NCBI GenBank assembly: GCA_903813345.2
Contig: CAIIXF020000003.1
Coordinates: forward strand, 8,147,815-8,211,814
Reading direction: 5' to 3'
Length of the DNA: 64,000 bases
Source: Owenia fusiformis
Taxonomy: Eukaryota > Annelida > Polychaeta > Sabellida > Oweniidae
The number at the start of each line of letters is the position of its first letter. Position 1 is the stretch's first letter. Position numbers and translations under genes: made by a program. Below the pieces are notes generated by a model. It was not told where the DNA came from. It saw nothing but the letters and a program-made list of their open reading frames with translations, and made no database searches. Positions 3,161-37,985 of this stretch are shown piece by piece.

Positions 3161-3256
3161 ATGTACAAGTGTTTGGAGGTCCAGGTTCCTGCCGAGCCAC
3201 CAAAGCTGGTAGAGAAACCGATTCCAGCCCCACCCGCCAAGGGACTGGTTATTAAA
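3161..3256 (+). CDS. ADH exon 1 (residues 1-32)
   Basis: Starts MYKCLEVQVPAEPPK and ends in phase 0 at the donor gtaagt (3257). It is the N-terminal beta strand of the GroES-like catalytic fold. Confidence 0.85.
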
Positions 3257-6200
3257 GTAAGTTGCTGTTTATTAAATAACTTAACTTAATGTATTAAGAT
3301 AATAATATTAACTAGTATCCTGTGCAATTAGCAGGTACCTACCATGCCACGCCTTCTTGTCCTTAAAAGGTACATTATGTATATATCTATCAGATTTATT
3401 TTCATTTTCTGGCAAACAAAATACTATGTGTTGTTAGCTCACATGGTGAGCTTTTGCAATCGCTCACTTGTCCGTCTGTCTGTCTGTCTGTCTGTCCGTC
3501 AACAATAGTGGCACGTTTTAAAACCTCTGTCGATAGGATTCCTGTTTTAAGTTATTTCTGCTCAACATCAATACAGAAAACTCCCCTATGACTCCTGGTT
3601 CAAAAGCTCGCCTATTTTCAAAATGGCCGCCATTTTTGTCTCGCGAAATTCACTTTTGACTGGCACGTTTTAAAACCTCTGTCGATAGGATTCCTGTTTT
3701 AAGTTATTTCTGTTCAACATCAATACAGAAAACTCCCCTATGACTCCTGGTTCAAAAGCTCGCCTATTTTCAAAATGGCCACCATTTTTGTCTCGCGAAA
3801 TTCACTTTTGACCCATTTCCTAGCTTTACAAATAATTTCAGGTGTCCTACATTGTAAAAATCTGTGTCATTGTAAAGAGTAGATATATGAACTAATTTTG
3901 TTACAAAAAATCAGCGAAACATTATATCTATTTTTTTATTTTCAGCCATTTTAGTTAACATTGATTTGTCCATCTGACTTGTGAAATCCACTTTTCCGTC
4001 AACAACAGTGGCACGTTTTAAAACCTCTGTCGATAGGATTCCTGTTTTAAGTTATTTCTGTTCAACATCAATACAGAAAGCTCCCCTATGACTCCTGGCT
4101 CAAAAGCTCGCCTATTTTCAAAATGGCCACCATTTTTGTCTCGCGAAATTCACTTTTGACCTATTTCCTAGCTTTACAAATAATTTCAAGTGTCCTACAT
4201 TGTTAAAATCCATGTCAATGTAAAGAGTAGATGTATGAAATAATTTTGTTACGAAAAATCAGCAAAAAATTATATCCATTTTTTTTATTTTCAGCCATTT
4301 TAGTTAACATTGATTTGTCCATCTGTCTCCCAAAATCCACTTTTGGACCATTTGCCTTAAACCCTCTGTCGATAGGATTCCTGTTTTAAGTTAATTTTGT
4401 TCAACATCAATACAAAAAAACTCTCCTATGACTCTTGGTTCAAAAGCTCGCCTATTTTCAAAATGGTCACCATTCTTGTCTCGCGAAATTCACTTTTGGC
4501 CCATTTCCTAGCTTTACAGATAATTTCAGCTGTCCTGCATTGTAAAAAGCCATGTCACTGTAAAGAATAGTTGTATGAAATAATTTTGATACAAAAAATC
4601 GGCAAAATATTAAATCAGTTTTTTTTTTCAGCCATTTTAGTTAACATTGATTCGTCCATCTGTCTCTCAGTCAGTCCAAAAAAGTGGCAAGTTTTAAACC
4701 TCTGTCAACACTTTTTAAATCCTCTGAAGATAGGATTCCCGATTTAAAATAATTTTGTTCAACATCAATAAAGAAAAAAAACCTGTGACTCCTGCTTCAA
4801 AATCTCGCCTAATTTCAAAATGGCCACCATTTTTGTCTCGGGAAATTCACTTTTGGCCCATTTCCTAGCTTTACAAATAAGTTCAGGTGTCCTGCATTGT
4901 AAAAAGCCATGTCTTTGTAAAGAGTAGTTGTATGAAATAATTTTGTCACAAAAAATCTGCAAAAAATTATACCCGTCTTTTTTATTTTCACTTTTGAGCA
5001 ACACCATGTGAGCCCAGTACCCACGGTACTAATTTTTTTTATTGAAATGGCAAAAATACACCGAAAGTCTCTCCTATATTACTTTCGACCTCATTTGACC
5101 TACTTTTTGAAAAATTTAATTCTACTTCCTCGAGAGTTTTGAATGATCTATAATATGGTACATGTACCTTAGATTTTACTGCATCCCTTTTGGAAATGCC
5201 TACCCCGCCCATGGAAAAATACGTTGCCAGCATTAGGGTCAAATAACCTAACAAGTTAAAGTTCTTACTTGAATTTTCCAACAATAAGAAATTGTTACTG
5301 AACATGTAATAATAGGTTAATCACTGAACATACGTTTTTTTATTATACAGACCGGGGCAGCCGGAATGTGCCACTCTGATATAGCAATAGGTGATGACTA
5401 TTTAAAGTTAGGTGATTCCATAGAGGATAACTCACTAAGTCAGTTTGACTCTGGCTTTAAATGCCCAACAGTTATGGGTAAGTGGGTCATTCACTTTCTC
5501 AACTAGAACTAATATTTTGCACTTATATATTCGTAGATTTTCTGGACTGTCAACATCTTGAACAAATATGAAAGCACGATGTTGATGATGAATATCCAAG
5601 ATCCAGCAATATTTCAAATGTTATACATTTTAAGCTAAAAGAATTTATATTAAATTCTATTTTAGGTCACGAGATTGCTGGGACAGTATATAGCATTGGA
5701 AAGGAACAATGTGCAGGTAAATAAAACAACATATGAACAAATATGTGTTCTCTATTTTGTTTTTCTGAACAAAATGCAGTACATATCCAGAAATGAATAC
5801 AGAAAGTCAGACATTGGCTTATCTTCTAATTGCCCCATTTTTGAGATTGCTTATCATCGCTAGCATCGTTACCCGTGAAACTAATACTCCTCTCCTACCA
5901 TTCACTATTAGAGATTTTACATTTTGGCATGCCAACCTAAGGTCCTTACCATGGCATGGGTGCACTAAGGTCCTATCACTTTTGGAAGAGTTTATTTTCA
6001 TTCAAAAGGTAGTATAGGAGTCGATATATTTTATAAGCACAACATTTGAATACACACTCAGTGGAGTCAGTTACTTGAATAAAACCTAGACATTGCAAAT
6101 CTATATAGTAATGTATAAGTATAGTATATAATTTATCAATTGTGCAAAAGACGCCATGCAGAACAGTTCTAGTGATAAAGACAATCTTCCCATTACAAAC

Positions 6201-9200: not shown

Positions 9201-12200
9201 ACATTCACACAAAATGACAGAATTTGGGAAAAGAAAAAGGAAAGCTCCAGAAATGTATAGGGATTGGAAGGTCATGGGCTAACAGTGCAAGATCTTAACG
9301 TTTTGTATTTTACTTTATAGCTAGAATAATGGGTGCATTTGACTTTTTAACCAAAATTGATGTTTGATGCACTAAAAAGTTTTACTAAATGCTTTAGTTG
9401 TTTTTACGATTTATATAATAAATTCATAATGCACAAAAATCCCGGACCAAAATCAGCTGTTCTTCAGTCTGGTTTGTTTTGGTACACTTTGTATCTTAAT
9501 GTACTTAGTCTACTAAATTGATTTCAAGAACTGGTATACGTGAGATTTAATGCAGGATATTTCATACAGACTATAAACTACCACCTTTGATTAAAGTGTT
9601 ATGCTGATTTGCGCATTCCCTCACTTTCTTCAAGAAATAGAGAATAATTTCAAAATTACATGATGAGAAACACACTCGGACATGTGCCACAACATAGTAT
9701 ATATTCAGTCTTATTTATAATATATTTCACTCTGGAATTACGCACAATGATGGCTGTATTTTATTTACAAGTAGGCTACATCTTGTTAGAGGTGAAAACA
9801 TAGCATCAAGTTTCAATAGAGCAGCTTGGAGCACTTCTCATCCGTTGTGTTGACAGCTCTCCTACTACATTAGTCTATTACTGATAGAGAAAGTGGCCGC
9901 TCATTTCTGGATTTGACTTCGGTCCGTTACATTGCTTAAAAATAACTAGTTGAACCTAAAAATCAAAAATCTAGAGACTATTGTGAAATAATATATAGAA
10001 AAAATATTCGTATTGCTCACGAATGACATTTCTTTTTCTTAGTTTGCCTGTGAATTGGCTTAGAAAGTCTGTAACCTCTTATATTTTGATGCAATATTAT
10101 TGCACAATAGTCTTAAGATTTCTTATATTTTAGGCTGAGCTGGTTGTTTTGAAGTCACAAACTTTGTCTCACGATATACCTTTTGTTCTTCAGATAGTGA
10201 CACTTTCAAAGTCGGCGATCGTGTGGTGATCTATGCATTTCCAGGATGTCAAGATTGTCCGTTCTGCGCGGCAGGTAACCAACTGATGTGTCCAAAGCTA
10301 AATCCAAATAGTTTGGGGATAGGTAAAGACGGAGGGTAAGTATAGATCATTACCATTACTTGTTGGGTAATGAACACTCATAGGAAGTCATTTCTACATT
10401 CATTCTTAACAGCTTTTATTTTTATAGACGTTTAGATACAAATCGATAATAATGATACTTTCATCTATTTGTAACCATGTATATAATGGCGTCATGGTCA
10501 GAGAACAATGGAGACTGGTTAATGGCAATATACAAAGCAGGTGTAAAAGGGTAGGTGGTCCTATCAAATTTTGGTCCGACTCTCTATTGATTTATGTGGC
10601 GACCTAATTACAATTATTCTCCTTATTATTTAAACACAGTCGGGGCAAGAAAGGGCCGCAAGGAAAGGGGACCAAAATTTCTTTCACACCGGCTTTGAGA
10701 AGCTGCAGTATGAAGCTGGCTTCTGAAAACTGGCTTTTAGCTGCCAGTTCACACTAACATACTAGCATGATTGTATGACCTTTAAAGAGACTCTATTGAG
10801 ACTTCTCTGTGGCATTTTTTCTTTATTCCTTTTTGTTTTGAATTTTTAACACCATAACATTAACTAACTACTCAATATGCAACTTTTCACCACGTAGAAT
10901 TTTAAAATATTAAGTTTGAAAATTCCATTTTTATAATGGAGCTCAATGGGAAAAACTACATAATTTGAATTATATTCAAACGTAAGGGCGCGATTTTGAT
11001 AAAATTGACAGATATAATAAATATTGGTAAGACGAAATGTTTGATGAAAAATGAAGAAAATTCACCGTTCTGGTTACGCAAACTATAGAAAAATCTGAAA
11101 TAATCATAAAAACCTGTAAAAATAGATTGAAGGGGGTGATATTCATTTCTAATGTGCCTTTCACTACTACAGGGTAACCATAATTTTGGTACTGATTTGA
11201 TTTTTCAATGAAAATCATTTCTATAGTGTATAGTCAGTTTAAATAATACAATTGCTATATTTCTTTACTGAACAGTGCAATCATTTATTTATTTATCAGC
11301 AGTAATGCAAACTACATATTAAACAGTTAGTAAAATATTAAAATAATTCTATTAAAATTAAAGCATTGAGATGATACTTAAATAATTACATATTATATTG
11401 ATAGACATATTATATTATAAGATTTAAGTCAATGACTCAATGCATTGTAGATGATTAAATTTAACATATGTCCTGATTCTTGACTATGAACGAGGGTGGT
11501 AGTCCGAATTCAAAGCCTAGACTAGAAGACATAAGTGAATTGAAGCATCCATTATTCATTGAATCATGTGCTTTAATTCAATTTCACACATTGCAAAATC
11601 TTTTTTACAATTTCACTTAACAGAATGATATTTTTTCAAAGATATGTTGTACTTTTAGAATCATTTGCTTCAAAGAATTGAACTATAGCGGCCTTTACTC
11701 GTTATTTTACGATTTCTGCTGTAACTCGAAAAGTAGTCGAGCGATTTTGTTCATATTTGGTATATGAATACTATAAGCATGGCACACTGTGTAATGACTC
11801 TTCTGGTAGAAGGCGGCCATTTGAACGTATTTTACTAAAACACGAAAAGTAGTGGAGCGATTTTGTTCATATTTGGTATGTGAATACTATAAGCATTGCA
11901 CACTGTCTAATGACACTTTTGGTAGAAGGCAGCCATTTTGAAAAATGGCCGTCATGTTAACGTATTTTACTATAACTCGAAAAGTAGTAGAGCGATTTTG
12001 TTCATATTTGATGCGTGAATACTATAAGCGTGGCACACTGTCTAATGACACTTTTGGTATAAGGTGGCCATTTTGAAAAATGGCTGCCATTTTTGCTGTA
12101 TACTTTGTTTGTAAAAAAAATGCCAGCCATGGCTGTTCGATGGGATTTGCTACACTTTGGTGTTGCTGTTGTCTAGTTGAAGGATGGATGGACGGACAAA

Positions 12201-15200
12201 TATCTCTATAGCGTATCCCCTAATCTTCGTTGGATTGAACAATTGTGAATATGGTTTGTTGGACAAATAAAACTGATTGAATGTCTAAAAGCAAATAATG
12301 AAGTGGTAATTACTAATTTATTTAACATCATTAAAATTTCAAACATGCTTGCTTTGGTCTAGTCACTTAATTCCTAAATGTCCCGTAATTAGTTTCTATA
12401 TACCTTATTAGATGCAGTGAAGGAGTTAAATCATTGGGATATGAATAAATCATGCAAAACATATTTTGTACATATTTCTCATCATTTAGGGTTACCCAGT
12501 AGTTTACAAGCTGACCTTTGCAAAATATATTTCACTTACTATCCTCATTCGCTATCACGCTATCTAGTTTCTTTCCAAATTGTCCTGAATTGCCTGGTTT
12601 ATTGGTTTGAGCGAACCGTCCATTTCGTCGAACCATCATTTTGCTAAGGTTGTTTGTGATGAATATACAATATTCAGTTACATATAACTGTACAGCAACT
12701 TTATGCAAGGGAAGGTAATTGTGTGAGAGCACATAACGTACACGAAGTATTGACCCACTTGTCTCAGTGAATCTTATAAACAGTGCATAAAGTTTTTTCT
12801 ATGCAATGATTGGCTCACAGTTACTTATAGTGTAAGTTATTTTATTTCTATACAGTGTGGAATAGAGTGTATAAACTTTTACAGTTTCAAGCAGGTTTTA
12901 GTGTTTTCTGACCAATGATATATTCAGACTTATTCATTTCACGATTATGTAATTCTGACCTACATATCTGTATAGCATATCTTTAATGATAAATGAGAAG
13001 GTTAGGCTAACCCCTTCCGTTTAGATGTGAGAAACATCACGTAGACAAACATTCCTCCTTAGTTAGCGCTAATTTATTTGGCGATTATTGGGATTTATGT
13101 ATCGGACATATTGGCGTCTATTTAATTCGGCGCTTTTCAAAGGGATACATTTCAAATCTGTATCTAGCATTTGCCCTCTGTTAAGATCGAGTTTGATTCT
13201 TGTTGATAAACAATTGAAAATGATCTAAATGAACCAGTTTAAGCGCCCTCGGCCATCTTATAATCAGAATTAGAAGTTCACCGAACGAAAAAGAAGTCGA
13301 TCCCCCGGGCATTTTGGCGACTAATTCATTTAGCAATTTTTGATTCGTCAAATTAAAACACTCGAAAAATTAAAGACAAATAGTAGTAGGTGGGTTAACT
13401 ACATTTCGACTTCACTTTATGATGCAAATGTCCCCTTTGGCATGGGAGGACCGTAGAGCAATAGAACTAATTATCTCCAAAGACACAAGCTAGATGGCGC
13501 TTTATATTGGAAATAAACGCATTTTAAAAATGGCCACCAAAAAACAACAACACAGACTTAATCTTTGCTTGTATGCATGCTATAAGGATAAGATTGGTGC
13601 CTAAATCTTCATTTTCGTGGGTGTAGAATCCATTTAATTTCGAGTCTTAAAAATTAAGAACTACCACTTTTTATTCAAAATATGTGGCTTTTTCCAAAAT
13701 GGCTTCCGGAAATATAACAAAGATGGTATTCTCACTTCTATGCATGCTACAAACGTGAGATTGGTGTCAAAGTATTGGAACAATGGATCACTTAACTTAA
13801 TCATCACCATAACTTTCCCTGGAAATCAGCGTAAATGGTCTACTCATATGTTTATATTGTAGATATGCAGAATATGTGAGCGTCCCAAACAGGAAGTTTG
13901 TTTTCAAACTACCAGATTCTATTACCATGGATATAGCATGTTTGATTTCGTGCAGTGCATTAACTGCCTACAATTCCGTCAGTAAGACTAAACCTGCTAT
14001 TGAAAATGCTCTCAAAATGACAGGTAAGATCCTCCCTTAAATGTTTATAGATAATATGTATCTAAACTTTATTTGTTAAAGTAAATCTAAATTTAAAAAC
14101 AATTTAAAGTTCAAATTCAACTTGCAAAATAGTATGGCCTCAAATATTGAAAAAATATAATGGTTGCTAATATCACATTAAGTCTATTTCACTCTGCACT
14201 GCAACTTTTTCAGGTTCTGCAACACTTTTGATCATAGGAGCAGGAGGGGTAGGTCAATGGGCAATTCAGATTGCAAAGGTTGTACTTCCCAAGGAGGCTA
14301 AAGTTTTGGTAGCTGATATAACAGTAAGACTATTCAAAATAGTCTTGAGTATATAATCCGGTGTAAGCCAATCAAAACAGTACAAATATACATGTGATCC
14401 AAATCTTCGAAACCTCGAAAATGACATTTTGTGTAGAAAAATAATTAACATTCATCAACCTATCTCTGATTTTCCTTTTTTCATCGAATTCAACTATGGT
14501 CAACTCTCGACCAATTAGATTATGTATTTCACTATTAAACACTAAGTTCAATGAACTCCACATATATGCATCATTAATTGATATAGATGAATCCAATTCA
14601 TTCATTATTCGACAACACTCTTAGTTTCTAATTTCTTACATAATACAATTTTTCATGCAGGATGAGAGATTAGCAGTTGTAAAGGAGAAAGCTGATATGA
14701 CAGTTCAATGGTCTAACGATGGTAAATATAATACAATAATAGTCACTATATACAGCATTTATCCTAAATAAAATGAAGAAAAGTTTCCATTTATCTACCT
14801 ACTAGTATAACTAGTGATATTTAAAGAAACATAGTATGTAAGCAGAAAAATCACAAATTAGAAAAATACTTTATCATAAAGTAACGAATCTCCAACAACC
14901 TACAATAATACAATAGTCTAAATTTAAAAGAAACTGTGTATTACCTCCCCTCAATTCTGAAACCATTATTACCACTGATATATACTAGCCTACATTATTT
15001 ATATATTGCAATTCATCAGACAAGAAGACCGACACGCTAGTATCAAAAATAGTCAAAGATGCTGGGTCAGCACTCAGACAAGATCGAGCATTCAATATTA
15101 AACCATGAATTCACTTCAATAATAGTTTACAGAAAATGCCATTTGCAGAAGATGACATGTCTTTCATGGCTAAAGTTACTGAGGTGACTGGAAGGTCAGC

Positions 15201-18200
15201 AGTTGAGGCCTCTATAGACTTTGTAGGAACACCCGCTACTATGAAACGTGCCGTGTGGTTAGCAAACAAGGTGTGTATAAACGTCTACGTACGTCTTCAA
15301 TAAAAACCGATTCATTTATTGAAGAATTAAGTTGGAAATGTGCATAGATTACGGGCAACACTGCCCAAATGTCGAGGAAATACCATTACATTGTTTTCGT
15401 ATTGTTTCTATTATTTTTGCTAGTTCGTTTCAGTTTGAAGCAATACTAAGGTTTGCTTCGATATTTTTCAGGGTTCCACACTTTGCACAATTGGATTATT
15501 TGGGGGAGCTGCAACATTTCCAATAGCATTTATACCAATGAAGCAATTAAATATCCAAGGGAATTATCTAGGATCCACCCAGCAAATACAAGAAGTTATA
15601 AAACTGGTAGCAGAGAACAAAGTAAGGAAAGCACATAGTTCTCGAGAGGAATTGAAAGTCTGATTAGTATTTCATTTTCGTAAAAATACAATCCTGTATA
15701 AGTAGTAATTTTGCCTCATCATTTAATTTGCCTATTGCCTAATTTTTGCCAGATTCAGAAAATTAAATGTCAGAAATATTATCTTCACAATATTATTCGA
15801 TGGGAAAATCCTTGTCATTAGGAAAATTTAAATTAAACAGGATCTTAAGAGGTTCTGGACAAATCATTTGATTCTGGACTTGTCATATTTTTTTTTCAAC
15901 GAAATCACATCCAAGGGTTGAATTTTTATTAGCTATTTAGAGAGTGAGTCCTGCCTAGTATTAATTTCAATACAAAAGTTAAAATAGAACCCTATTTGAG
16001 AGTCAATCTAATACTTACATTACATTGATAAATTAAGGCAAATCCTGAAATATTTTTAAAGTGCGTTTTTTTAATGAAATATTATCCAGCAAGTATTTAA
16101 ATGAAACGGTCTTATTTAAATACAAATCATAACATGATATTTTTCATGAAACATTTTTCAATGAAATTCAATTGAAGGGTCAAGATAAAACGAGCTAATT
16201 TAGCTGAAAACCCTTACATGATGATGTGTTTTCATAACTTCTTTCATAAAATTCCATCAAGGGGTGAAGATAAAATGATCGAATTTAAGTGATTTAAGGA
16301 TCACGAGAATATGTTTTCTTTGATATTTTCTATGAAATCCCATCCAATGGTCAAGGTAAAATTTTGATTTTGATTTTGATTTGGTCACGTGTTCGAAAGA
16401 TCCATATAAGGCCCATAGACCATATAGGAACGTCATTTTGAATGTCACATGATAGATCCATATAAGGCTTTTAGAACCATTTATGGAAAGATGAGGGGAA
16501 GCCCCTGACACCTGTTTCACGATTTTTATGCACTTCATTATTGTACCGAAGTTTGCCGATTCGATTCGTCGTATTTCGGAATCCTGGTGACAATTTTATA
16601 CTCCATTGGAGTATTTTTGACCTACTTCTTATGACGGAAATTCCCGAACCTTGTTCGGATTAATCCGGATTTTCTGACCTACCTTATCTACCGAGATTTC
16701 ACGAGTTAACATTCGTCTCATTCCGGAATCCTGGTGACAATTTTATTTTTGATCTACTTTTTCTGGATTTTGCCCTACTTATTATATCTTGACAACAAGC
16801 AAATCAAAAAGTTCGACATGAACGGGTCTCGATCAACTAACCTAGACTATGGAAGCCAGGCACGCTAACCATGAGACCAACGAGCTACCGATATGAAAGA
16901 ACAAAAGTATTATATATTTATACCGAGCGTCAATTCAAAATGATCCTCACTTTTGTCTCCACTTAAATACGACTCGTCAGTTGTATCCAGAATAGTAGAA
17001 CGCCTATGGCGCTAGTGAATAACCAAGTCCCAGGTGAGTGGTTCGTATCCCTCCGTGATATACTATTTTTGTTTTATTAAATACGACAGAAAGGAGCAAG
17101 GTGTAGGTTGAAAACAAGACGTTAGTTTGTTTCAAAACAGTTTGGAAACATTAATCTCTGGAACATTATTTTTTCAACACTGATACAAATTTCCCTGACA
17201 TTTCCCTGACATGTCTACCGTTTCAAAATTCCCGGTCATCTTTGGCCCTTTTGACCTAATTTTAAAATTACCTGACATTTCCAGCACTTGGAAAATCAAG
17301 TCAATTTCCCTGACATTTCCAGGTGTGTATGAACCCTGGAAATATCCCACTGGCTCGCCCTATGAATCGCTAGCACAGATTGGATTGATTAGTGTTTCAA
17401 AATGGTGGACGAAGTGTTTGATTAGATAATTTACATATTAAGCTTCTTAAAGGGGCAACAAGGCCTGTACATAGAAAATTCGAAATTTTTTACATTTTCT
17501 GAATTTTTAGGGCAACGTTTGGCTTTAACATCTTTTTTTATACATTTTTTCTTAAAATGTATGGATAAACAATAAAATTTCAGCATTAAGCATCAAAGCT
17601 TCTATAAAGGGAGTCCAACTTATAGATTTTGAAAATCCGACTCGTTTAAAGAAGAATATCAGCAGCTTAAATCACGCCTTGTGATCATACAAAATGGATG
17701 GAGGGGGGGGGGGGGGTAGGCGATTTCTGCAAGAAAACTCAACAAATTTGGAAGATTTATTTTTTTCAAGATAAAATTTACAACTGAATTGCCAAATGAA
17801 TAGGCGCAGTTCATGGCAAAATATGTAAGGTCTTCTAGTATTTTTTGAACTGATACGCTTCTAAGATATGAGATCTATTATAAGAGGCGCATCATCATCA
17901 TCATCATCATCAACGTGCAAAAGTCAATGTTTTTGCTATAAATCAGGCAACAATGGTCTACACGACCTGTAATAAATAGGTATGAGGGGCGTTATTAGAG
18001 AATTTTCGTTATAAGTTTTTTTTAAAACTTATACGTATACTTATACTTATAAACCCAATAAACAAGGTGTTTCATAATTTCCTAATTCGTCGGGAAATAT
18101 CTCCTTGGACGGTAATAAAAAGGGCCAATGGCATACCATCCGTACCCCCTTGATGTAAAGCATGTTTAGTTGTGTCAAATGTGTTTTCTAGAATCAAATA

Positions 18201-21200
18201 GGCTGATATAGCACACGGGTTTTACAGATTCATCTACTCTCAAATATATTTTTTGTAGATGATCGTTTTGAATCACCTTGTAGAAATAACGAAGGGAGAA
18301 TTAGTTCAGCTAATGAATGAGTCGAGCTATTTGATTGGATACTATGCCTATTCAGCCGATTAATTTTAATAAACCATTCTGGTCAGTAGGTCCACACATA
18401 TACTATGCGGAGATCCAACTCTGTAAGTTTATAATCTGCGTATAAAGGCCCTTTTATACGTAAAAACTTAAAAATTGACCGTATAATTTCATGAGAACTT
18501 TGAAATGATCGACTCGTTCGTGTAGTGATTCACTTTAAAGGGTCTTGTTTATTGTACACTACAAGGACCCGTCAACTAGAATTTAGTTTATCGTGTTCAT
18601 AATTGAAACTAGCAAAGGACATTGTATTCGCAGTCCCTAGTTGATGATGAAGCTTGACTATATCGGGAATAGTTATGCCCCACTTGGTACAGATTATGAA
18701 AATCAATTTGAATTGATTTTAGTTCGACAAGACCCTTTAAACTATCAGTATACGTATAAGTTTTTGAAACAACTTATAACGAAAATTCTCTATTATCACA
18801 ACACTGACATTGCTCACTTTTTAAAGTTGTTTCAAAGCGTTATATGTAAATGGGCGTGTGGAAGGCCCGTGGGTGGCAATAAAATAACTCGAACTTCAAA
18901 TTAAAATATATATAAAATAGTATATTTCAAACTTCAATGTTTAAAATACAATGCTCTGTAATGTACAACATGAACTCTTACAGCAACTACTGACAAGCCA
19001 ACACCCAATGCAAACTCAGCTACATGTGAGTGAGAAAGACCATATAGGGGAACAATAGATATATAAAACTGACACAGTTTGCATAGTTGAATAACTCAAG
19101 GTGAAAAGTGAACATGGTATTAAAAGAGTAAAACTGCAAACAACCTACTTAGGGACCTGTTATATTGAGATGAATAGGGATTGATTAATATGAACAGTAA
19201 TAATATAAAATGTGAAAATGACCATGTTACATATACAAAAAATAACCCCATTGTTACAAAATCACAAAAAGTGAAATATCTATTCTTGTATTGCATTTTC
19301 GTTCACTGGACATATTTTAATTGCATTGCTATTAGATACATTTTAAGGGTGATATGAAAATTGAACCACGAAAACAGATGTACTTTAAGTTAAAGGGAAC
19401 TTTCTACCATACCCGCTATGCTATCTGACCCGAACGAGCCACCTTGTGGTGAGATTGGTAACTACCTGCTCGCATCTGCGTTATTACGCAGAGACATAAA
19501 CGTATACACAAGGAAACGATAGGAGATAACCTATTTTATCTCTGTATACATTTTAACTTTAATACATCGTTGAATCGAATTTGTCCAAAGGTCTTGAAAC
19601 GTAAAATACCTAAATATTTATCTTAGACCTTGGGATGACCTTGTACAAGAAACATTAATGTTGACCTCGGTTCATCTAATCATAATTCGCCAAGGGCCAT
19701 AGTATCATCAAACGCCAAATACCTAGACATTGATCGTTTACTTGGATTTAAATAAGGAGTATGATTTTAAAATTGGCTAGGTCGTGGTTAAGCAACAATA
19801 GTATGTTCGAAATACCGCTGTGTAATGCCTGGATCACATTTGCTGCGAGTATTTTGTTCAAAATTGAATACATTTCTGAACACAATACTCAATCGGCCGG
19901 GCGCCGTAGTGAAAATCGGAGCAAATGTGACCAAGACATAAAACAATTGAATAATACTGTATCAGTTTCACATTTACAGCGGTCAAAAGCATTTACAAAA
20001 AAACCGCCAGAGTTGGCAATCATATAAAATGAAACCAATCCCGCTGTGATTCATAGAAATAACTAATTTACTGAATTGAGTTCAATGTTATAACCATGTC
20101 GATTTACATGAGTGTCCGATTCATTGTACCAAAGGATCTTGTACACCTGCCATTATGATCTCCCCATGAACAAAATGAATCATTTTTAGGTGTAATATAA
20201 AGAATACAATGTTACATAATACTTTGGAAAATATTTAAGCGTTTGGCCCCACATGGGCTGATGTTGGGGTCATTAAGTTCAGCAAGGGTGTATTGACTTG
20301 ACATTGGATGTGTTCTATTGACTAACATGTGGATACCATCAGATTCCAATGGAGGCCATTGGTTTCTATTGATTTTCACAAAAATACCTAAAATACACTA
20401 TGACCTGAATCGATTGCAAATTAAATAATTTCACAATATGACACAAATGGTATTTCAGATCAGATGTGCAAATATAAAGTTTGCAATCGATTCAGGTCAT
20501 ACTTCAAATTAAAAGATTATTCATTTTTTTCATCATTTTTTTCCTACAAAATGGCTATAGAAAAATGCTTCAAAAGCAACTTTTACACTTATGAAATCCC
20601 ATACAACTTTGTAAATCCAAAGATTATACTGTTATGATTCATTAATTAATAACATATTTTGATAAGATGTAGGGATGTGTAGGATGCAAATGGATTTTGA
20701 CAGACACAAAAAGACTTCCTGGTTTGGCATCTCTACCCCTGTACACTTTATGATTGAATATTGCCCTAAAAAGTGGCCAATTCATCAATTCAGTGCTGAA
20801 TATAGGTCAACAAGATACTAGTGTACATATAAATGTAATAATAAAAGCAGTATATTTATTTTGAAAAATCAGATGAATTTATTTTTGTTCATGGGGAGAT
20901 CATAATGGCAGGTGTACAAGATCCTTTAAACCTTGACTGTTCTCCAGAAAGCAATAAGCTGACATATATCATATTTTACATTTTAATACAACTGAAAAGA
21001 TAATAAATGTTTTAATATAAAGTTGACGTAGTTATAAATCTTTTCAGCGTAAAATCAAAGCACAACCATATAATTAAAAACATTACGCTGGGATTCCAAC
21101 TAGATACAACTGACGAGTTGTATTTAGGTGGCCTAAAGTGCTGCTTATTTTTTCGTGAAGCCACTCAGTAAAATTACGATTTCTCTCAACCCTGGTGTTC

Positions 21201-24200
21201 AATCAACATCATTCGAGTATCTATATGTTTCTGACACGTTCGGGCATCCGGTTATGACAACGTCTACCCAATGTTTGCACGAGAAATTGACGTAATTCAT
21301 GACTGAAATCGGGAAGACAAAAATATGTGATATTCTTTCAGAATTGTTTATAATAACTATTTACAAAAACGTTCCCGAGACACAATCCATTTAGGTAGGG
21401 TTTGTTTTAAAGTCGAAAAGCCCCAATAAGACAATACAAACCCAGATTAAACCCAGAAGAATGCAGATTTCATGTAATGATTTACGTTCATGTAAACAAG
21501 GAAAGTACATATAATCCCCATATAAAACACTGGCCTACGTGACATGTAAACACAGGTTCAAATTGAAATATAGAAAATTTTCAACATAGCATTTGCTTCT
21601 GTGTTCTGTATGCCCCTCTACCTGCTAATAAGGCAATGTATCTTCAAATAAAACCTTAGCCAAGTAGATAAGGGTCTCTGGAACACTTTTGTAAATAGTT
21701 TTCACAAGCAATTTTATTCCCGGACGCCCAAACGTGTCAGGAACACATATATATTTGAATGATCTTGATTGGACATCAGGTTGCAGAGAAATCGTATTTT
21801 TACTGAGTGGATTATTGAATTTCATAGATCTAGAGGCCCTTCAGGAGTGGAAAACCTTAAATTATCAGAGATTAATGTTTCCAAACTGTTTTGAAACAAA
21901 CTAACGTCTTGTTTTCAACCTACACCTTGCTCCTTTCTGTCGTATTTAATAAAACAAAAATAGTATATCACGGAGGGATACGAACCACTCACCTTGGACT
22001 TGGTTATTCACTAGCGCCATAGGCGTTCTACTATTCTGGATACAACTGACGAGTCGTATTTAAGTGGAGACAAAAGTGAGGATCATTTTGAATTGACGCT
22101 CGGTATAAATATATAATACTTTTGTTCTTTCATATCGGTAGCTCGTTGGTCTCATGGTTAGCGTGCCTGGCTTCCATAGTCTAGGTTAGTTGATCGAGAC
22201 CCGTTCATGTCGAACTTTTTGATTTGCTTGTTGTCAAGATATAATAAGTAGGGCAAAATCCAGAAAAAGTAGATCAAAAATACTCCAATGGAGTATAAAA
22301 TTGTCACCAGGATTCCGGAATGAGACGAATGTTAACTCGTGAAATCTCGGTAGATAAGGTAGGTCAGAAAATCCGGATTAATCCGAACAAGGTTCGGGAA
22401 TTTCCGTCATAAGAAGTAGGTCAAAAATACTCCAATGGAGTATAAAATTGTCACCAGGATTCCGAAATACGACGAATCGAATCGGCAAACTTCGGTACAA
22501 TAATGAAGTGCATAAAAATCGTGAAACAGGTGTCAGGGGCTTCCCCTCATCTTTCCATAAATGGTTCTAAAAGCCTTATATGGATCTATCATGTGACATT
22601 CAAAATGACGTTCCTATATGGTCTATGGGCCTTATATGGATCTTTCGAACACGTGACCAAATCAAAATCAAAATCAAAATTTTACCTTGACCATTGGATG
22701 GGATTTCATAGAAAATATCAAAGAAAACATATTCTCGTGATCCTTAAATCACTTAAATTCGATCATTTTATCTTCACCCCTTGATGGAATTTTATGAAAG
22801 AAGTTATGAAAACACATCATCATGTAAGGGTTTTCACCTAAATTAGCTCGTTTTATCTTGACCCTTCAATTGAATTTCATTGAAAAATGTTTCATGAAAA
22901 ATATCATGTTATGATTTGTATTTAAATAAGACCGTTTCATTTAAATACTTGCTGGATAATATTTCATAAAAAAATGCACTTTAAAAATATTTCAGGATTT
23001 GCCTTAATTTATCAATGTAATGTAAGTATTAGATTGACTCTCTTTTTTATTGAAATTAATACTAGGCAGGACTCACTCTCTAAATAGCTAATAAAAATTC
23101 AACCCTTGGATGTGATTTCGTTGAAAAAAATATATGACAAGTCCAGAATCAAATGATTTGTCCAGAACCTCTTAAGATCCTGTTATTAGGAAAATTATAA
23201 AATTTGCCCATTCGGGAAATTAACAAATCGGATTAAATACCACTTAAATACCACCATACAGTATATTTGAAATAAAGGATTTAACAACTTACTAGATAAA
23301 ATACATTGGGTATAGTCATGTAATGTTCTGAAGAAGTCTGGATAATATTTTCATCTTTTTTTGTTATTTTATCTAAACAACCATGCCATTCTACCAGGTT
23401 TGTAGTCAGGACAGTTGGCACATATATAGAAAGAACAGTCGAGTTTTTGCAAATTTTTATTAAGTTACTGAAGGGTATCTGCAAACGATGAAAAAGTAGA
23501 TGAATTGGTCACTTATTTCAGTCTACATGAAGCCATTTTCACGCTAGGAAACTCACTTGAGATGACCCTCAAAATAGCCGAATAAATACAATACATATTT
23601 TTCAGATAACCCCTCCATGGTGTGAATGATGCTTTGAATAGACTTATAACATATTATACAAAACATATTTACCCCTTTTCAGATAACTCTCCACCTTCGG
23701 AGCATGTTACACTAGATGGTGTGAAATATGCTTTGGATAGACTTGTAACATATTATATAAAACATATTTACCCCTTTTCAGATAACTCCACCACATTTGG
23801 AGCATGTTACACTAGATGGTGTAAATGGTGCTTTGGATAGACTTATAACATATTATGTAAAACATATTTACACTTTTTCAGAAAACTCCCCCACCTTTGG
23901 AGCATGAAACACTAGATGGTGTAAATGATGCTCTTGATAGACTTATAACATATTATACAAACTATATTTACCATTTTTCAGATAACCCCCCCCCCCCAAC
24001 CTTTGGAACATGTTACACTAGATGGTGTAAATGATGCTTTGGATAGACTTATAACATATTATATAAAACATATTTACACTTTTTCAGAAAACTCCCCCAC
24101 CTTTGGAGCATGAAACACTAGATGGTGTAAATGATGCTTTTGATAGACTTTTAAGATATTATTATACAAACTATATTAACCATTTTTCAGATAACCCCCC

Positions 24201-25601
24201 CAACCTTTGGAACATGTTACACAAGATAGTGTAAATGATGCTTTGGATAGACTTATAACATATTATATAAAACATATTTGCCGCCTTTCAGATAACTCTC
24301 CACCTTTGGAGGATTCTACACTAGTTGGTGTAAATGATACTTTGGTTAGACTCATACCATATTATACAAAATATATTTACACTTTTTCAGATAACTCCTC
24401 CACCTTTGGAGCATGTTACACTAGATGGTGTAAATGGTGCTTTGGATAGACTTATAACATATTATATAAAACATATTTACACATTTTCAGATAACTCCCC
24501 CACCTGTGGAGCATGTTACACTAGATGGTGTAAATGGTGCTTTGGATAGACTTATAACATATTATATAAAACATATTTACACATTTTCAGATAACTCCCC
24601 CACCTGTGGAGCATGTTACACTAGATGGTGTGAATTATGCTTTGAATAGACTTATAACATATTATACAAAATATGTTTACACTTTTTCAGATAACCCCCC
24701 CCCAACCTTTGGAGCATGTTACACTAGATGGTGTAAATGGTGCTTTGGATAGACTTATAACATATTATGTAAAACATATTTACCCATTTTCAGATGACCC
24801 CTCTACATTTGGAGTATTTTACACTAGATGGTGTGAATTATGCTTCGAGTAGACTAATAACATACTATATAAAACATATTTAGCCATTTTCAGATGACCC
24901 CTCTACATTTGGAGCATGTTACACGAGATGGTGTAAATGATGCTTTGGATAGAATTATAACATATTATATAAAACATATTTACACATTTTCAGATAACTC
25001 CCCCGCCTTTGCAGCATTTTACACTAGATGGTGTAAATGGTGCTTTGGATAGACTTATAACATATTATGTAAAACATATTTACACATTTTCAGATAACTC
25101 CCCAACCTTTGGAGCATGTTACACTAGATGGTGTAAATGGTGATTTGGATAGACTTATAACATATTATATAAAACATATTTACACTTTTTCAGATAACTC
25201 CCCCACCTTTGGAGCATGTTTCACTATATGGTGTAAATGATGCTTTGGATAGACTTATAACATATTATATAAAACATATTTACACATTTTCAGATAACTC
25301 CCCCACCTTTGCAGCATTTTACACTAGATGGTGTAAATGGTGCTTTGGATAGACTTATACCATATTATATAAAACATATTTACCCATTTTCAGATGACCC
25401 CTCGACATTTGGAGAATGTTACACAAGATGGTGTGAATTATGCTTTGAATAGACTAATAACATATTATACAAAATATATTTACACTTTTTCAGATAACTC
25501 CCCCACCTTTGGAGCATGTTTCACTAGATGGTGTAAATGATGCTTTGGATAGACTCAGAAAGGGCCAGATTAAAGGAAGAGCAGTTATCACGTTTGATTA
25601 A
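3161..25601 (+). CDS. Zinc/NAD-dependent medium-chain alcohol dehydrogenase, ten exons
   Basis: Coding exons: 3161-3256, 5351-5477, 5666-5716, 10194-10335, 13863-14023, 14214-14323, 14661-14721, 15149-15270, 15472-15621 and 25494-25601. All introns are GT-AG and the phases close to 375 codons plus TAA, within the usual length of the family. Visible motifs are GMCHSD (Cys39) and GHE (His76) for the catalytic zinc, a probable third ligand Cys169, four structural-zinc cysteines (110, 113, 116, 124), the Rossmann loop GAGGVG (201-206) and Asp227 at the end of the next strand, which favours NAD over NADP. The family oxidises alcohols or reduces aldehydes in the cytosol; the substrate cannot be read here. 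The start is the first ATG of exon 1. The last intron is 9.9 kb and ends in a tandem array of last-exon copies. Confidence 0.92.
3257..5350. other. ADH intron 1
   Basis: Intron 1 runs from gtaagt at 3257 to the acceptor tattatacag ending at 5350. Most of it is the degenerate repeat block at 3437-5030. Open frames at 4765-5305 (minus) are repeat readings, not genes. Confidence 0.8.
3437..5030. repeat. Degenerate tandem repeat block with inverted ends
   Basis: The block opens with gctcacatggtg and closes with caccatgtgagc. Between them the unit containing acctctgtcgataggattcc, then caaaatggccaccattttt and cctagctttacaaataatttc recurs at about 3510, 3662, 4009, 4350 and 4690. Full units are about 340 bp and decay to the right. 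A (tctg)n tract lies at 3474-3498. Non-coding. Confidence 0.7.
5351..5477 (+). CDS. ADH exon 2 (catalytic zinc Cys, GMCHSD)
   Basis: Begins TGAAGMCHSD, the first catalytic-zinc site of medium-chain alcohol dehydrogenases, and ends in PTVMG. The donor gtaagt at 5478 leaves one base of a Gly codon completed by exon 3. Confidence 0.93.
5666..5716 (+). CDS. ADH exon 3 (GHEIAG)
   Basis: A 51-base exon. It completes Gly75 and encodes HEIAGTVYSIGKEQCA, with His76 as the second catalytic-zinc ligand and Glu77 of the GHE motif. Phase 1 on both sides. Confidence 0.92.
6331..7086. repeat. 756 bp foldback element
   Basis: Left arm starts taaggtgctatggaagttaac; the right arm ends with its inverse, gttaacttacatagcacctta. 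The arms are about 350 bp each, centred near 6700 in an A-rich spacer. The open frames 6317-6547 (+) and 6881-7081 (-) are the same arm read twice and are not a protein. Confidence 0.75.
7120..7850. repeat. Array of a ~30-50 bp motif in both orientations
   Basis: The motif tactttctccattgtgtatg with variants recurs irregularly from about 7135 to 7610. Its inverse, catacacactggagaaagta, recurs from about 7630 to 7850. The block is thus a loose inverted repeat of two arrays. A (ttc)n run lies at 7187-7207. Confidence 0.6.
7850..8180. repeat. Diverged relative of the 6331-7086 element
   Basis: It shares the order of motifs with the core of the foldback: aaaatgtgac, aaaggtc, agaatct, gtgcc-aatatatta, tttcagacaa and ttgggcacattttctga. 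The outer arms are missing. Confidence 0.55.
8590..8715. repeat. Dispersed repeat, related to 19825-19945
   Basis: Both stretches contain gagtattttgttcaaaattg followed by aatac, and a closing cggagcaaatgtgacc. The copy at 19825 also has an internal inverted pair (cgagtattttg against caatactc). Confidence 0.5.
10194..10335 (+). CDS. ADH exon 4 (structural zinc)
   Basis: Encodes DSDTFKVGDRVVIYAFPG and then CQDCPFCAAGNQLMC, the four-cysteine structural zinc lobe. It ends in the second base of a Gly codon before gtaagt at 10336. Confidence 0.94.
10545..10705 (+). repeat. Dispersed repeat, inverted relative of 2003-2200
   Basis: Reads aaattttggtccgactctct through to ttctttcacaccgg, the reverse complement of the copy upstream of the gene, with point differences and small indels. 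Confidence 0.55.
11695..12110 (+). repeat. Tandem repeat, three units of ~115-135 bp
   Basis: Each unit has aactcgaaaagtagtcgagc (or a variant), ttgttcatatttggt, actataagc-tggcacactgt and ggcggccattttgaaaaatgg. Units start near 11722, 11836 and 11973. Confidence 0.7.
13863..14023 (+). CDS. ADH exon 5
   Basis: Encodes GYAEYVSVPNRKFVF, then CLISCSALTAYNSV, in which Cys169 sits where the third catalytic-zinc ligand is expected. It ends in phase 1 at gtaaga (14024). Confidence 0.93.
14214..14323 (+). CDS. ADH exon 6 (NAD-binding Rossmann motif)
   Basis: Encodes the betaalphabeta unit with GAGGVG at residues 201-206 and the acidic Asp227 in VLVADIT, the residue that usually binds the adenosine ribose of NAD. 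Ends in phase 0. Confidence 0.94.
14661..14721 (+). CDS. ADH exon 7
   Basis: A 61-base exon, DERLAVVKEKADMTVQWSND, between acceptor tttcatgcag and donor gtaaat. Phase 0 in, phase 1 out. Confidence 0.85.
15020..15108 (+). pseudogene. Possible relict alternative exon between ADH exons 7 and 8
   Basis: After a plausible acceptor (attcatcag) the phase-1 frame reads DKKTDTLVSKIVKDAGSA and stops at TGA 15106-15108. The pattern LVSKIVKDAG-SA is reminiscent of exon 8 (FMAKVTEVTGRSA). No donor is evident. It could be a decayed duplicate of exon 8, a premature-termination exon, or chance. Confidence 0.35.
15149..15270 (+). CDS. ADH exon 8
   Basis: Encodes EDDMSFMAKVTEVTG, then EASIDFVG, the strand typical of the family (usually V-D-FVG), and ends VWLANK in phase 0 before gtgtgt at 15271. 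Confidence 0.92.
15472..15621 (+). CDS. ADH exon 9
   Basis: Encodes GSTLCTIGLFGGAATFP through QQIQEVIKLVAENK. Reading on gives a stop after 22 more codons and would lose the C-terminal strand, whereas the donor gtaagg at 15622 joins in phase 0 to the terminal exon at 25494, giving a normal family tail. Confidence 0.9.
15836..17160 (+). repeat. Left arm (1.3 kb) of a long inverted-repeat element
   Basis: Starts aacaggatcttaagaggttc; the right arm ends with the inverse at 23184. The inner edge is attaatctctg at 17150-17160, matching 21866-21876. The 93-codon frame at 16257-16538 (minus) is identical to 22503-22784 (plus) because it lies in both arms; it resembles no known protein and is read as arm sequence. 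Confidence 0.85.
16821..16890 (-). repeat. tRNA-derived segment in left arm
   Basis: The minus strand reads gttggtctcatggttagcgt and ends gatcgagacccg, like a degenerate pol III A box and B box. The anticodon arm does not fold cleanly, so a working tRNA is unlikely. An inverted copy lies at 22136-22205. Confidence 0.5.
17993..18795. repeat. ~800 bp element with ~50 bp inverted ends
   Basis: Left end agagaattttcgttataagt with acttatacgtatact; right end is the inverse, agtatacgtataagt with acttataacgaaaattctct. No coding capacity. Confidence 0.6.
18844..19250 (+). repeat. Dispersed repeat, relative of 48460-48850
   Basis: Shared blocks are ggaag-ccc-tgggtggcaat near the start and gggacctgtta, gatgaat-gggattg and aatatgaa-agta near the end, in the same order in both places. 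Confidence 0.55.
20128..20935. repeat. ~800 bp foldback element
   Basis: Left end has ggatcttgtacacctgccat and tgatctccccatgaacaaaa; the right end at 20885-20930 is their inverse. A second inner pair, tatgacctgaatcgattgca (20399) against tgcaatcgattcaggtcata (20483), is centred between them. Confidence 0.65.
21866..23184 (-). repeat. Right arm (1.3 kb) of the long inverted-repeat element
   Basis: Inverted copy of 15836-17160, ending gaacctcttaagatcctgtt at 23184. A few differences are visible, such as small indels near 23040 and 22330, so the arms are not identical. Confidence 0.85.
22136..22205 (+). repeat. tRNA-derived segment in right arm
   Basis: Reads cggtagctcgttggtctcat and ends gatcgagacccg. 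A-box-like and B-box-like, but not a foldable modern tRNA. Mirror copy of 16821-16890. Confidence 0.5.
23606..25493 (+). repeat. Tandem array of 19 partial copies of the ADH terminal exon plus acceptor
   Basis: Units begin at about 23606, 23683, 23782, 23882, 23982, 24088, 24191, 24292, 24391, 24491, 24591, 24691, 24794, 24894, 24994, 25094, 25194, 25294 and 25394, so the period is close to 100 bp. Each unit has about 62 bases matching the start of the real last exon (ccacctttggagcatgttac to gatagact), then about 38 bases of intron end (acatattatataaaacatat plus a pyrimidine tract and cag). All 19 keep the AG acceptor, and most keep the exon frame (TPPPLEHVTLDGVNDALDRL or close). None has the rest of the exon, so using one would replace the enzyme's tail by intron-coded residues and a stop. 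Confidence 0.9.
25494..25601 (+). CDS. ADH exon 10 (terminal, last unit of the array)
   Basis: After tacactttttcag the frame reads ITPPPLEHVSLDGVNDALDR and continues LRKGQIKGRAVITFD, stop TAA 25599-25601. The proline-led segment, the alpha helix V-ALDRLRKG and the GRAV strand are the usual end of medium-chain alcohol dehydrogenases. The first 55 bases are unit 20 of the array; the part after gatagact is unique to this copy. Confidence 0.92.
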   Translation: MTPPPLEHVSLDGVNDALDRLRKGQIKGRAVITFD

Positions 25602-25955
25602 AGATGTTCTTCAACGAGGACTTGTCTGCCAACATACTGCCAGTTATAAACAATACTCAATAATAGCATTTATATGAAACAGCTCCCGTGGACAGACTCA
25701 GAAAGGGCCAGATTAAAGGAAGAGCAGTTATCACATTTGATAAAAGATGTTCTTCAACGAGGTCTGCGGAAATACTGCCAGTTATAAACAATACTCAATA
25801 ATAACATTTATATGGAACAGCTCCCGTGGACAGACTCAGAAAGTGCCAGATTAAAGGAAGAGAAATTATCATGTTCTTCAATGAAGATTTTTGACAAACA
25901 TGCTCTCAGTTATAAGCAATACTCAATAATAACATATATACGGAAGAGATTCTGT
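25548..25955 (+). repeat. Three-copy tandem repeat of exon 10 end and 3' UTR
   Basis: Units start at 25548, 25691 and 25829 (periods 143 and 138). Each begins with gacagactcagaaagg or a variant and runs through actgccagttataaacaata and gctcccgtg. In the second unit the stop is changed (ttgattaa to ttgataaa), so only the first can end the enzyme as expected. The third is more diverged. Confidence 0.85.
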
Positions 25956-36559: not shown

Positions 36560-36957
36560 TTACAATATAATACAATTTCTATTAGAGGTCTCTGGTCTAT
36601 CCCATTGTAGTCTTGCCTGACAGGCAACGTCCTTAGTGTTCAAATTGCTGTCTACAACATTCCCTACACTACAACTGTCCTCATCACTACCGCTATCACC
36701 ATCACTTTCACCGCTACTACTATCACTGTCCCCACAACTACCATCACTGTCCCCACTACTACCATCATTGTCCCCACTTCTACCATCACTGTCCCCACTA
36801 CTACCATCACTGTCCCCACTACTACCATCACTGTCACTACTACTACCACTGCTCTCACTGCCATCACCCTGTCCATCCCTGCATTCATCGTCACCAGAAC
36901 CATCACCTCTATCGCCACATTCACCATCATCATCCTCCACTTCTACACTCTCCTTCG
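36560..36957 (-). CDS. Zinc-finger gene exon 3 (acidic Ser/Asp repeat)
   Basis: Completes the split codon and encodes AKESVEVEDDDGECGDRG, then repeated DGSSGDS units and a C-terminus ending NRNCIIL. The 15-base DNA repeat (ccactactaccatcactgtc on plus) gives low-complexity shadows in other frames. Confidence 0.65.
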
Positions 36958-37985
36958 CTACAACAGAGTTCATATATTTCAATATCTCTCACATATTATT
37001 TGTGTTTACTTATTCATTATATACCTTCTATGTATATTACTTTTATTAGTTAAATTATCTCACCTTCTACACTCTCCTTCGCTTTCTGCTCTTTCTCCCA
37101 CTCTTCTCTCAACTCCTTCCTCATTGTCTCCCGTTTCCTCTCTTCTCTTTTCTCGTTCTCCTTCGTTCGTCTAATCATTCTCTGCAAGTTGCTTTCTTGC
37201 CTTGGGTTTCTCTTGAGACGAACTAGTGTTGGCGATTCTGAATAAACAGGCAATCCAACCAAATCTATCGGCACCCCTGGCTCCTCTCCCAAATCCTCTT
37301 CCGCTTGTATCAGTCTTTGTTCCACCACTTTCTTGTTTTCCACTTCCATCCTCCTTCGCTTTCTCTCCGCATCAACCCTCTTCACCTGCTCCTTACACTT
37401 CTGCTCATGCTCCCTCACTCCCTCAGCCAACTTCTGCTCCAATCCTCGCATCTCCTCATCGAACTTGTTGCATCTTTCCTTGAACTCCATCTCTTTACGT
37501 CTTCCGCTTCCTGCTTCTTCTCTCTCCTTCGTCCTCTCATCTTCTACTTTCCTCCTTTTTACACTCTCCTCCTCCTCCTCGGACCTTCTCTTCAACGGTT
37601 CTACGTAGTACTTGTTTGGGACAACTTCAAAACCAAACTGATGTTCTCTTGACAACTTATGAAGCCTGAGCCTGTGGTTAAAGAGATCTTCTTTCCTTGT
37701 GAAACGTCTATTGCATACATCACATATAAACAACTTGACTGTCCTTTGGTGGACCCGCCTATGCCTGCTCAGGCTACTTGAATGTGAGAAGCTCACGTCA
37801 CAGGATTCACAGGGAAACATCTGCAAATATAACATGGCAGTTATTAATGATATCTCTCTATCATTTATTTATTATTACTTAATTATTACTATTTTTTATA
37901 TTTTCCTTTTACAGAGCCTATTTAATCACATCAGGATTTACTACATAAATTTTAATACTAAATTTACAATAACCTGACAGCTCAT
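36560..37985 (-). CDS. C2H2 zinc-finger, coiled-coil, acidic-tail protein; three exons
   Basis: Minus-strand exons 37985-37974 (MSCQ), 37820-37064 and 36957-36560 join in phase to 388 residues. Introns are gttatt...tttgcag (153 bp) and gtgaga...tgttgtag (106 bp). Two C2H2 fingers lie near the N-terminus (CESCDVSFSHSSSLSRHRRVH and CDVCNRRFTRKEDLFNHRLR), followed by about 180 charged residues likely to form a coiled coil, then an acidic Ser/Asp/Gly repeat region. This suggests DNA binding with an acidic region; the target is unknown. AKESVE is encoded on both sides of intron 2 by an approximately 20-base repeat. The gene lies between integrase and polypurine tract on the same strand. The start could be further upstream; the first exon is the weakest part. 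Confidence 0.65.
37064..37820 (-). CDS. Zinc-finger gene exon 2
   Basis: Starts MFPCESCDVSF after a clear acceptor (atatttgcag) and carries both C2H2 fingers and the Lys/Arg/Glu-rich coiled-coil region. Ends GAGAGTGTAGAAG before gtgaga, phase 1. Confidence 0.75.

Follow-up and report, generated by a model that had tools for sequence, protein, structure and literature searches.

A tandem array of terminal-exon splice acceptors in an alcohol dehydrogenase gene of Owenia fusiformis and in two neighbouring paralogues

Duplicated splice sites in described genes

Choice among near-identical splice acceptors has, to our knowledge, been studied mostly in engineered genes with few copies. Reed and Maniatis reportedly showed in 1986 that duplicated 3' splice sites with truncated exons compete, exon content and proximity deciding the outcome; theirs were engineered minigenes with few copies, whereas the locus described here, in the annelid Owenia fusiformis, is a natural array of 20. 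In mutually exclusive exons each copy has an acceptor and a donor (or a stop and a poly(A) signal) and forms an equivalent coding unit. The Owenia locus is like them in holding tandem copies of exon sequence within one gene, but its decoys carry neither a strong donor nor the true C-terminus, cannot replace the exon, and are therefore not mutually exclusive exons.

Two natural systems invite comparison. In a potato gene, as set out in the part of PMC4974935 that deals with it, a cryptic GTAAG became a donor after an intron end and exon had been duplicated, and an intron was gained. In the Owenia gene, too, an intron end and the adjoining exon were duplicated together, the copies inheriting their signals from the parent, namely a branch site (here recognised by motif), a pyrimidine tract and a 3' splice site. 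The potato case as described there, however, comprises one duplication and a new intron that is used, whereas here there are 19 extra copies of terminal-exon sequence, no good donor and no new intron in the proteins as annotated. As to the donor that marks intron gain, in 18 of the 19 units the score of the cryptic donor is lower than that of any of the 36 real donors. The human UBC gene, in the section of PMC10809524 concerned, possesses tandem dual-specific splice sites, in which AGGT at each monomer boundary acts as donor or acceptor. Both loci display splice sites at the repeat period and many near-identical competitors, but in the UBC description whole coding monomers are removed, whereas the Owenia boundary, CAG/A, is acceptor-only and just one copy has the complete exon. 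AGGT is absent from the unit boundaries, and a dual-specific array of the UBC type was rejected. The Owenia array resembles both intron gain by tandem duplication (PMC4974935) and UBC (PMC10809524), with the full set of defining features of neither. A search of the open-licence PubMed Central literature found no many-copy terminal-exon acceptor array and no paper on the splicing of Owenia alcohol dehydrogenase (ADH).

The gene and its acceptor array

The window, the whole 64,000-nt stretch of DNA that was analysed, corresponds to positions 8147815-8211814 of contig C3 and contains a gene for a zinc medium-chain ADH (Table 1). Exons 2-10 join into a 343-residue product that is identical across its full length to the published Owenia fusiformis protein P0001 (375 aa), while exon 1 was placed by tblastn of P0001. 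All nine splice junctions are GT-AG. For exon 8 there are two possible acceptors, separated by 16 nt (exon start 15133 or 15149), of which 15149, not 15133, keeps the frame and matches P0001. The product is recognised by the Pfam models ADH_N (76.2 bits; cut-off 23.5) and ADH_zinc_N (74.9 bits; cut-off 31.8), and its nearest solved structure by sequence is 2eer, an NAD-dependent ADH from Sulfolobus tokodaii. H76, E77, C110, C113, C116 and C124 are unchanged in 9/9 aligned proteins; we take the first two to be the catalytic His-Glu pair and the cysteines to be the four-cysteine structural zinc lobe.

Table 1. Positions of the ADH gene, its arrays and its paralogues (window positions unless preceded by C3; decoy acceptors are given by the first base on the exon side)
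Feature	Position	Strand	Remarks
ADH gene	3161-25601	+	ten exons
ADH exons 1-5	3161-3256, 5351-5477, 5666-5716, 10194-10335, 13863-14023	+	
ADH exons 6-9	14214-14323, 14661-14721, 15149-15270, 15472-15621	+	
Donor of intron 9	15622-15627	+	AAA/GTAAGG; the one donor opposite the acceptors
Intron ends of the 20 acceptors	23567-25493	+	~38 nt; pyrimidine tract and CAG
19 decoy units	23606-25493	+	first ~62 nt of exon 10 and intron end
Decoy acceptors 1-10	23606, 23683, 23782, 23882, 23982, 24088, 24191, 24292, 24391, 24491	+	
Decoy acceptors 11-19	24591, 24691, 24794, 24894, 24994, 25094, 25194, 25294, 25394	+	
Unit 20, true exon 10	25494-25601	+	coding as far as the stop; encodes HVSLDG...RKGQIKGRAVITFD as in P0001
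Second array	25546-25871	+	138 bp x 2.3; latter half of exon 10 with the beginning of the 3'UTR
P0003 gene	C3:8125365-8131942		exon 9 ends at 8131306; five acceptors at 8131463, 8131563, 8131649, 8131749 and 8131835; 186-bp dimer pattern
P0002 gene	C3:8136715-8146211		two acceptors; first unit broken by deletion
P0004 gene	C3:8028458-8035906		one last exon

The original prediction was of units of about 100 bp, each with an AG acceptor and the first ~62 bases of the last exon, which together offer some 20 competing acceptors to one donor. TRF reported an array at 23617-25555 (period 100, 19.3 copies, 86% matches, score 2831, far above chance), and the listing of acceptors bears out the same units, each consisting of ~38 nt of intron end and the first ~62 nt of exon 10. 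Twenty TTTCAG/A acceptors were counted, which are more exactly 19 decoys plus the true acceptor, and the single donor lies where it was expected, its GT (15622-15623) directly following exon 9. The units were located by TTTCAG, and their regular spacing leaves none without this motif. Among the 19 repeat units, 12 measure 100 bp exactly, six others span 99-106 bp, and the first, which has lost 23 nt of its exon part, comes to 77 bp; the boundary reads CAG/AT at 18/20 acceptors and CAG/AA at two.

As had been proposed, unit 20 alone runs on into the C-terminus and stop (...RKGQIKGRAVITFD), and most decoys keep the frame (15/19; units 3-6 and 9-19). If these were used as acceptors, the 62-nt part would be read in frame and translation would continue onward to a stop, giving 29-53 residues in total, while use of units 1, 2, 7 or 8, in which the frame is lost, would lead to a stop 7-12 residues in. 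All 19 decoys end in a foreign tail and a stop. P0001 carries HVSLDG...RKGQIKG, the product of unit 20, and its annotated junction is therefore 15621 to 25494, which gives intron 9 a length of 9872 nt.

The decoy units share 75-98% identity pairwise. No higher-order periodicity was found within the array, mean identity being 0.87-0.89 at every lag from 1 to 14, and a tree of the units has mostly weak support. The second array lies directly downstream and overlaps the first by 10 bp (TGGAYAGACT). An assembly artefact was judged unlikely in view of the divergent units, the three loci with unequal lengths and a common breakpoint, and the PacBio reads, which are far longer than the array; the part of PMC9977687 on the published Owenia assembly, probably the one analysed here and put there at 505.8 Mb as against 498 Mb, gives a read N50 of 25.75-30.75 kb.

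Intron 9 also contains an inverted repeat with arms of ~1.3 kb (15836-17160 and 21866-23184) lying ~4.7 kb apart. The arms are 97% identical overall, with blocks of 680 and 417 nt at 100%. A 12-base direct repeat, ATTAGGAAAATT, was seen by eye just outside both arms; a scripted scan for target duplications around the inverted repeat reported none. The element is probably a transposon with long inverted ends that inserted recently, and its folding in the pre-mRNA could bring the donor near the acceptor array.

Related arrays in the gene cluster

Searching the 498-Mb assembly with the array, by a DNA search that skips very common words and so yields lower bounds, returned at least five places including the array itself, all within one ~42-kb stretch of a single chromosome. 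Apart from the window with its 3' copies, two matching places lie just upstream of the window. With matches confined to this stretch the array does not look dispersed, and a dispersed satellite, a mobile repeat or an introner is unsupported, the matches returned by this search all falling in the ADH cluster, where an introner would have copies in many unrelated genes. Beyond the original prediction, two adjacent paralogues, P0003 and P0002, carry the same array, with five and two acceptors, respectively, against 20 in P0001, and all three share the breakpoint junction GATAGACT/TAT (GACT/TAT). With its head-to-tail units of tens of bases and a copy number that differs among paralogous loci, the array has the attributes of a minisatellite (VNTR). 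A further three, distant ADH homologues are located at C8:27688001-27722500, two of them identical over the matched exon stretches; each of the three has one match to the last exon. Some 480 nt past the P0004 stop, outside the exons of that gene, there is a 117-bp x 3.8 array (C3:8036387-8036829).

Synonymous divergence (dS) over exons 1-9 is 0.67 for P0001-P0003, 0.70 for P0001-P0002 and 0.37 for P0002-P0003, and 0.92-1.11 for P0004 against the other three. By contrast, exon 10 of P0001 and P0003 displays a dS of 0.18 and 94% identity, with similarity extending ~50 nt into the 3'UTR. As exon 10 is far closer than exons 1-9 between these two genes, the module has been homogenised. We infer from these comparisons that the array had one origin, after P0004 split off, with later homogenisation among neighbours; alternatively, neighbours that had already split may have passed the array to one another, which would also explain the sharing. 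The founding event was probably a tandem duplication that linked position 62 of the last exon (...GATAGACT) back to a point ~38 nt before the acceptor, most likely in the ancestor of the three adjacent genes. Since such a duplication spans the intron end and part of the exon, each unit would form a portable 3' splice site bearing half an exon. Unequal exchange would then have grown and shrunk the array and homogenised it within and between neighbours.

Tandem arrays also touch other exon edges in the cluster. At the donor of P0002 exon 2 there are 11 tandem 40-bp copies (C3:8137423-8137863), mostly TGG or TGT/GTAAGT; GT is present in 11/11 and GTAAGT in 10, and the annotated donor is that of the first copy. 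P0002 exon 7 occurs as four copies in 142-bp units (C3:8144412-8144978) in which the donors are kept, while the acceptor position reads GG in the three upstream copies versus AG in the used copy. In every annotated case here except P0003 exon 10, it is the copy with the complete exon attached that is used. Elsewhere in the window a minus-strand ORF (36563-36988) covers a 21-bp tandem array at 36698-36848, across which it encodes serine/glycine/aspartate repeats. Over the 188 kb examined, which are not a random sample, 31 tandem arrays occupy 6% of the sequence. Exon overlap by arrays in the ADH cluster is not significantly enriched (5/9 versus 2.8 expected, P 0.097; 3/7 versus 1.96 expected, P 0.30, when the index array and its neighbour are left out), and the idea that tandem arrays are in general drawn to exon edges was discarded for want of significance.

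Use of the decoys, rival readings and significance

It had also been proposed that the choice of acceptor would switch between the enzyme and a tail-altered form. This gains partial and indirect support, as the published P0003 ends in a decoy tail, but the published protein of the window gene uses the last acceptor; it is the sole one found for that gene, and no switch is seen there. The C-terminus of P0003, ...VILDGVDDALDRLISYLSIFR (ITPPPLEHVILDGVDDALDRLISYLSIFR), corresponds exactly to unit 2 of five (acceptor 8131563), whereas unit 5 (acceptor 8131835) encodes the complete C-terminus ITPPPLEHVTLDGVNDALDRLRKGQIKGRAIITFD; at two codons units 2 and 4 read ATA and GAT and unit 5 reads ACA and AAT. 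AlphaFold places a strand in the true tail with confidence (369-373; block pLDDT 90-93) but models the decoy tail poorly (block pLDDT 56). The decoy product is predicted to lack the last strand of the catalytic domain. The P0003 gene model may be an annotation error. PMC9977687 states, however, that the Owenia annotation was built from RNA-seq assemblies, splice junctions, Augustus and PASA and that 99.29% of its transcripts have RNA support; as this annotation is likely of the assembly analysed here, the P0003 decoy junction may be real.

The splice signals of the array vary among units. An AG-free stretch of 35-41 nt precedes 18/20 acceptors, the exceptions being the first (28 nt) and the fourteenth (10 nt), and branch-like YTNAY motifs, identified as such by motif, lie within 60 nt of the 20 acceptors. 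CTAAT at -37 precedes only acceptors 14 and 20, and the former has an AG at -10, such that acceptor 20 alone has both CTAAT at -37 and an AG-free stretch without a break (41 nt); other YTRAY motifs occur ahead of acceptors 5 and 7. With a weight matrix built from 32 acceptors of four genes, exon 10 being left out, the array acceptors score 0.7-12.8 (median 4.6), compared with 0.8-15.1 (median 8.3) for real acceptors scored by leave-one-out. The highest score in the array belongs to the first acceptor (12.8), while the true acceptor, at 7.5, is equalled by acceptors 9 (7.5) and 12 (7.6); strength alone therefore fails to explain use of the last acceptor. Similarly, the annotated decoy of P0003 scores 5.5 versus 9.2 for the true acceptor, and its use is unexplained by score.

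Of the changes within the decoy exon parts, 26 are synonymous, 58 non-synonymous and none creates a stop, in agreement with the neutral fractions (0.27/0.71/0.02). Exon parts diverge by 7.4% per site and spacers by a similar 6.8%, and the codon positions are nearly alike. No sign of selection on the decoy coding sequence was seen, which argues against a selected alternative protein. The acceptor hexamers are somewhat better conserved than the remainder: no invariant run across 19 units is longer than TTTCAG, with which the intron ends (permutation P 0.015, in a test chosen post hoc), but the AG by itself would stay invariant without selection at P 0.15-0.23. The invariance of TTTCAG hints at some selection on the acceptors that a purely neutral account does not need.

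Exon definition predicts use of the copy attached to a complete exon, and in terminal exon definition the acceptor pairs with the poly(A) signal of the full exon. The reading that we consider probable is of an acceptor-bearing minisatellite, homogenised across the gene cluster, in which the complete exon is normally chosen and the decoys probably leak. Productive enzyme mRNA would result from splicing to the copy that has the complete exon. The likely cause is terminal exon definition, in which the acceptor of this copy would be paired with a poly(A) signal close by and with the full exon, perhaps aided by the unique combination of CTAAT and unbroken AG-free stretch. The decoys would remain splice-competent and probably leak, the annotated decoy of P0003 being an example, and the array would be tolerated because the complete exon remains selectable. 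The same observations could reflect chance only, in a minisatellite-rich region where some arrays happen to lie on exon edges, the decoys are never used and the P0003 model is wrong. This is consistent with the abundance of tandem arrays, with their unremarkable overlap with exons whether or not the index arrays are counted, and with the decoy of P0003 being weaker than its true acceptor. We find it unlikely, however, given that nearly all decoy scores fall within the range of real acceptors and that the P0003 tail reproduces unit 2 letter for letter in an annotation that used RNA-seq hints (PMC9977687).

A regulatory switch is possible. Here the array would be a selected switch or valve, acceptor choice setting active enzyme against a tail-altered or unproductive mRNA and copy number tuning the outcome. 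Decoy acceptors in three paralogues, the decoy-tailed P0003 and the invariant TTTCAG of P0001 speak for it, as does AG at all 27 acceptors recognised in the three arrays, which were located partly by AG but are regularly spaced; the GG of the upstream copies of P0002 exon 7 provides a contrast. The absence of codon constraint, the 20/5/2 copy numbers, the AG invariance expected without selection and the mostly weaker array acceptors argue the other way, as do the first decoys of P0001 and P0002, which are broken by deletions and end in short dead tails (ITPPWCE-stop and MI-stop). Such selection is accordingly doubtful, and its more elaborate form, a copy-number-tuned splicing valve kept in the three sister genes since before their split, with P0003 as its decoy output and the P0002 donor array as a mirrored device, is in our view quite unlikely. 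Highly improbable is a chain of cassette microexons, in which a 39-nt in-frame exon (ITPPPLEHVTLDG), a cryptic donor (GGT/GTAAAT) and a 61-nt intron would yield variable 13-residue inserts. Such a chain is a prediction of intron gain by tandem duplication and has a precedent in the recruited cryptic GTAAG of potato (as described in that part of PMC4974935); a scripted scan detected GTRAA in 19/20 units of P0001, in 14 of them 39 nt, a multiple of three, from the acceptor. Against it, 18/19 donor motifs score at or below -1.4 and one (AGT/GTAAAT) 4.2, compared with 0.6-12.7 for the 36 real donors, no intron among the 36 of these genes is shorter than 86 nt, and none of four aligned Owenia proteins contains such inserts. 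The chain was rejected for its weak donor.

Returning to the homogenised minisatellite with leaking decoys, the published P0003 may be a decoy or an annotation product, a warning to its users. The cluster represents a natural experiment on splice-site competition, with 20, 5 and 2 acceptors facing one donor and 11 donors in P0002, for which the single-copy sister genes serve as controls. If the right copy is always chosen, the locus would be a strong in vivo demonstration of exon definition. If the valve is true, decoy number would set the share of pre-mRNA that becomes full enzyme as opposed to decoy-tailed or unproductive mRNA, and if copy number indeed sets the isoform ratio, minisatellites at exon edges would be tunable splicing elements.
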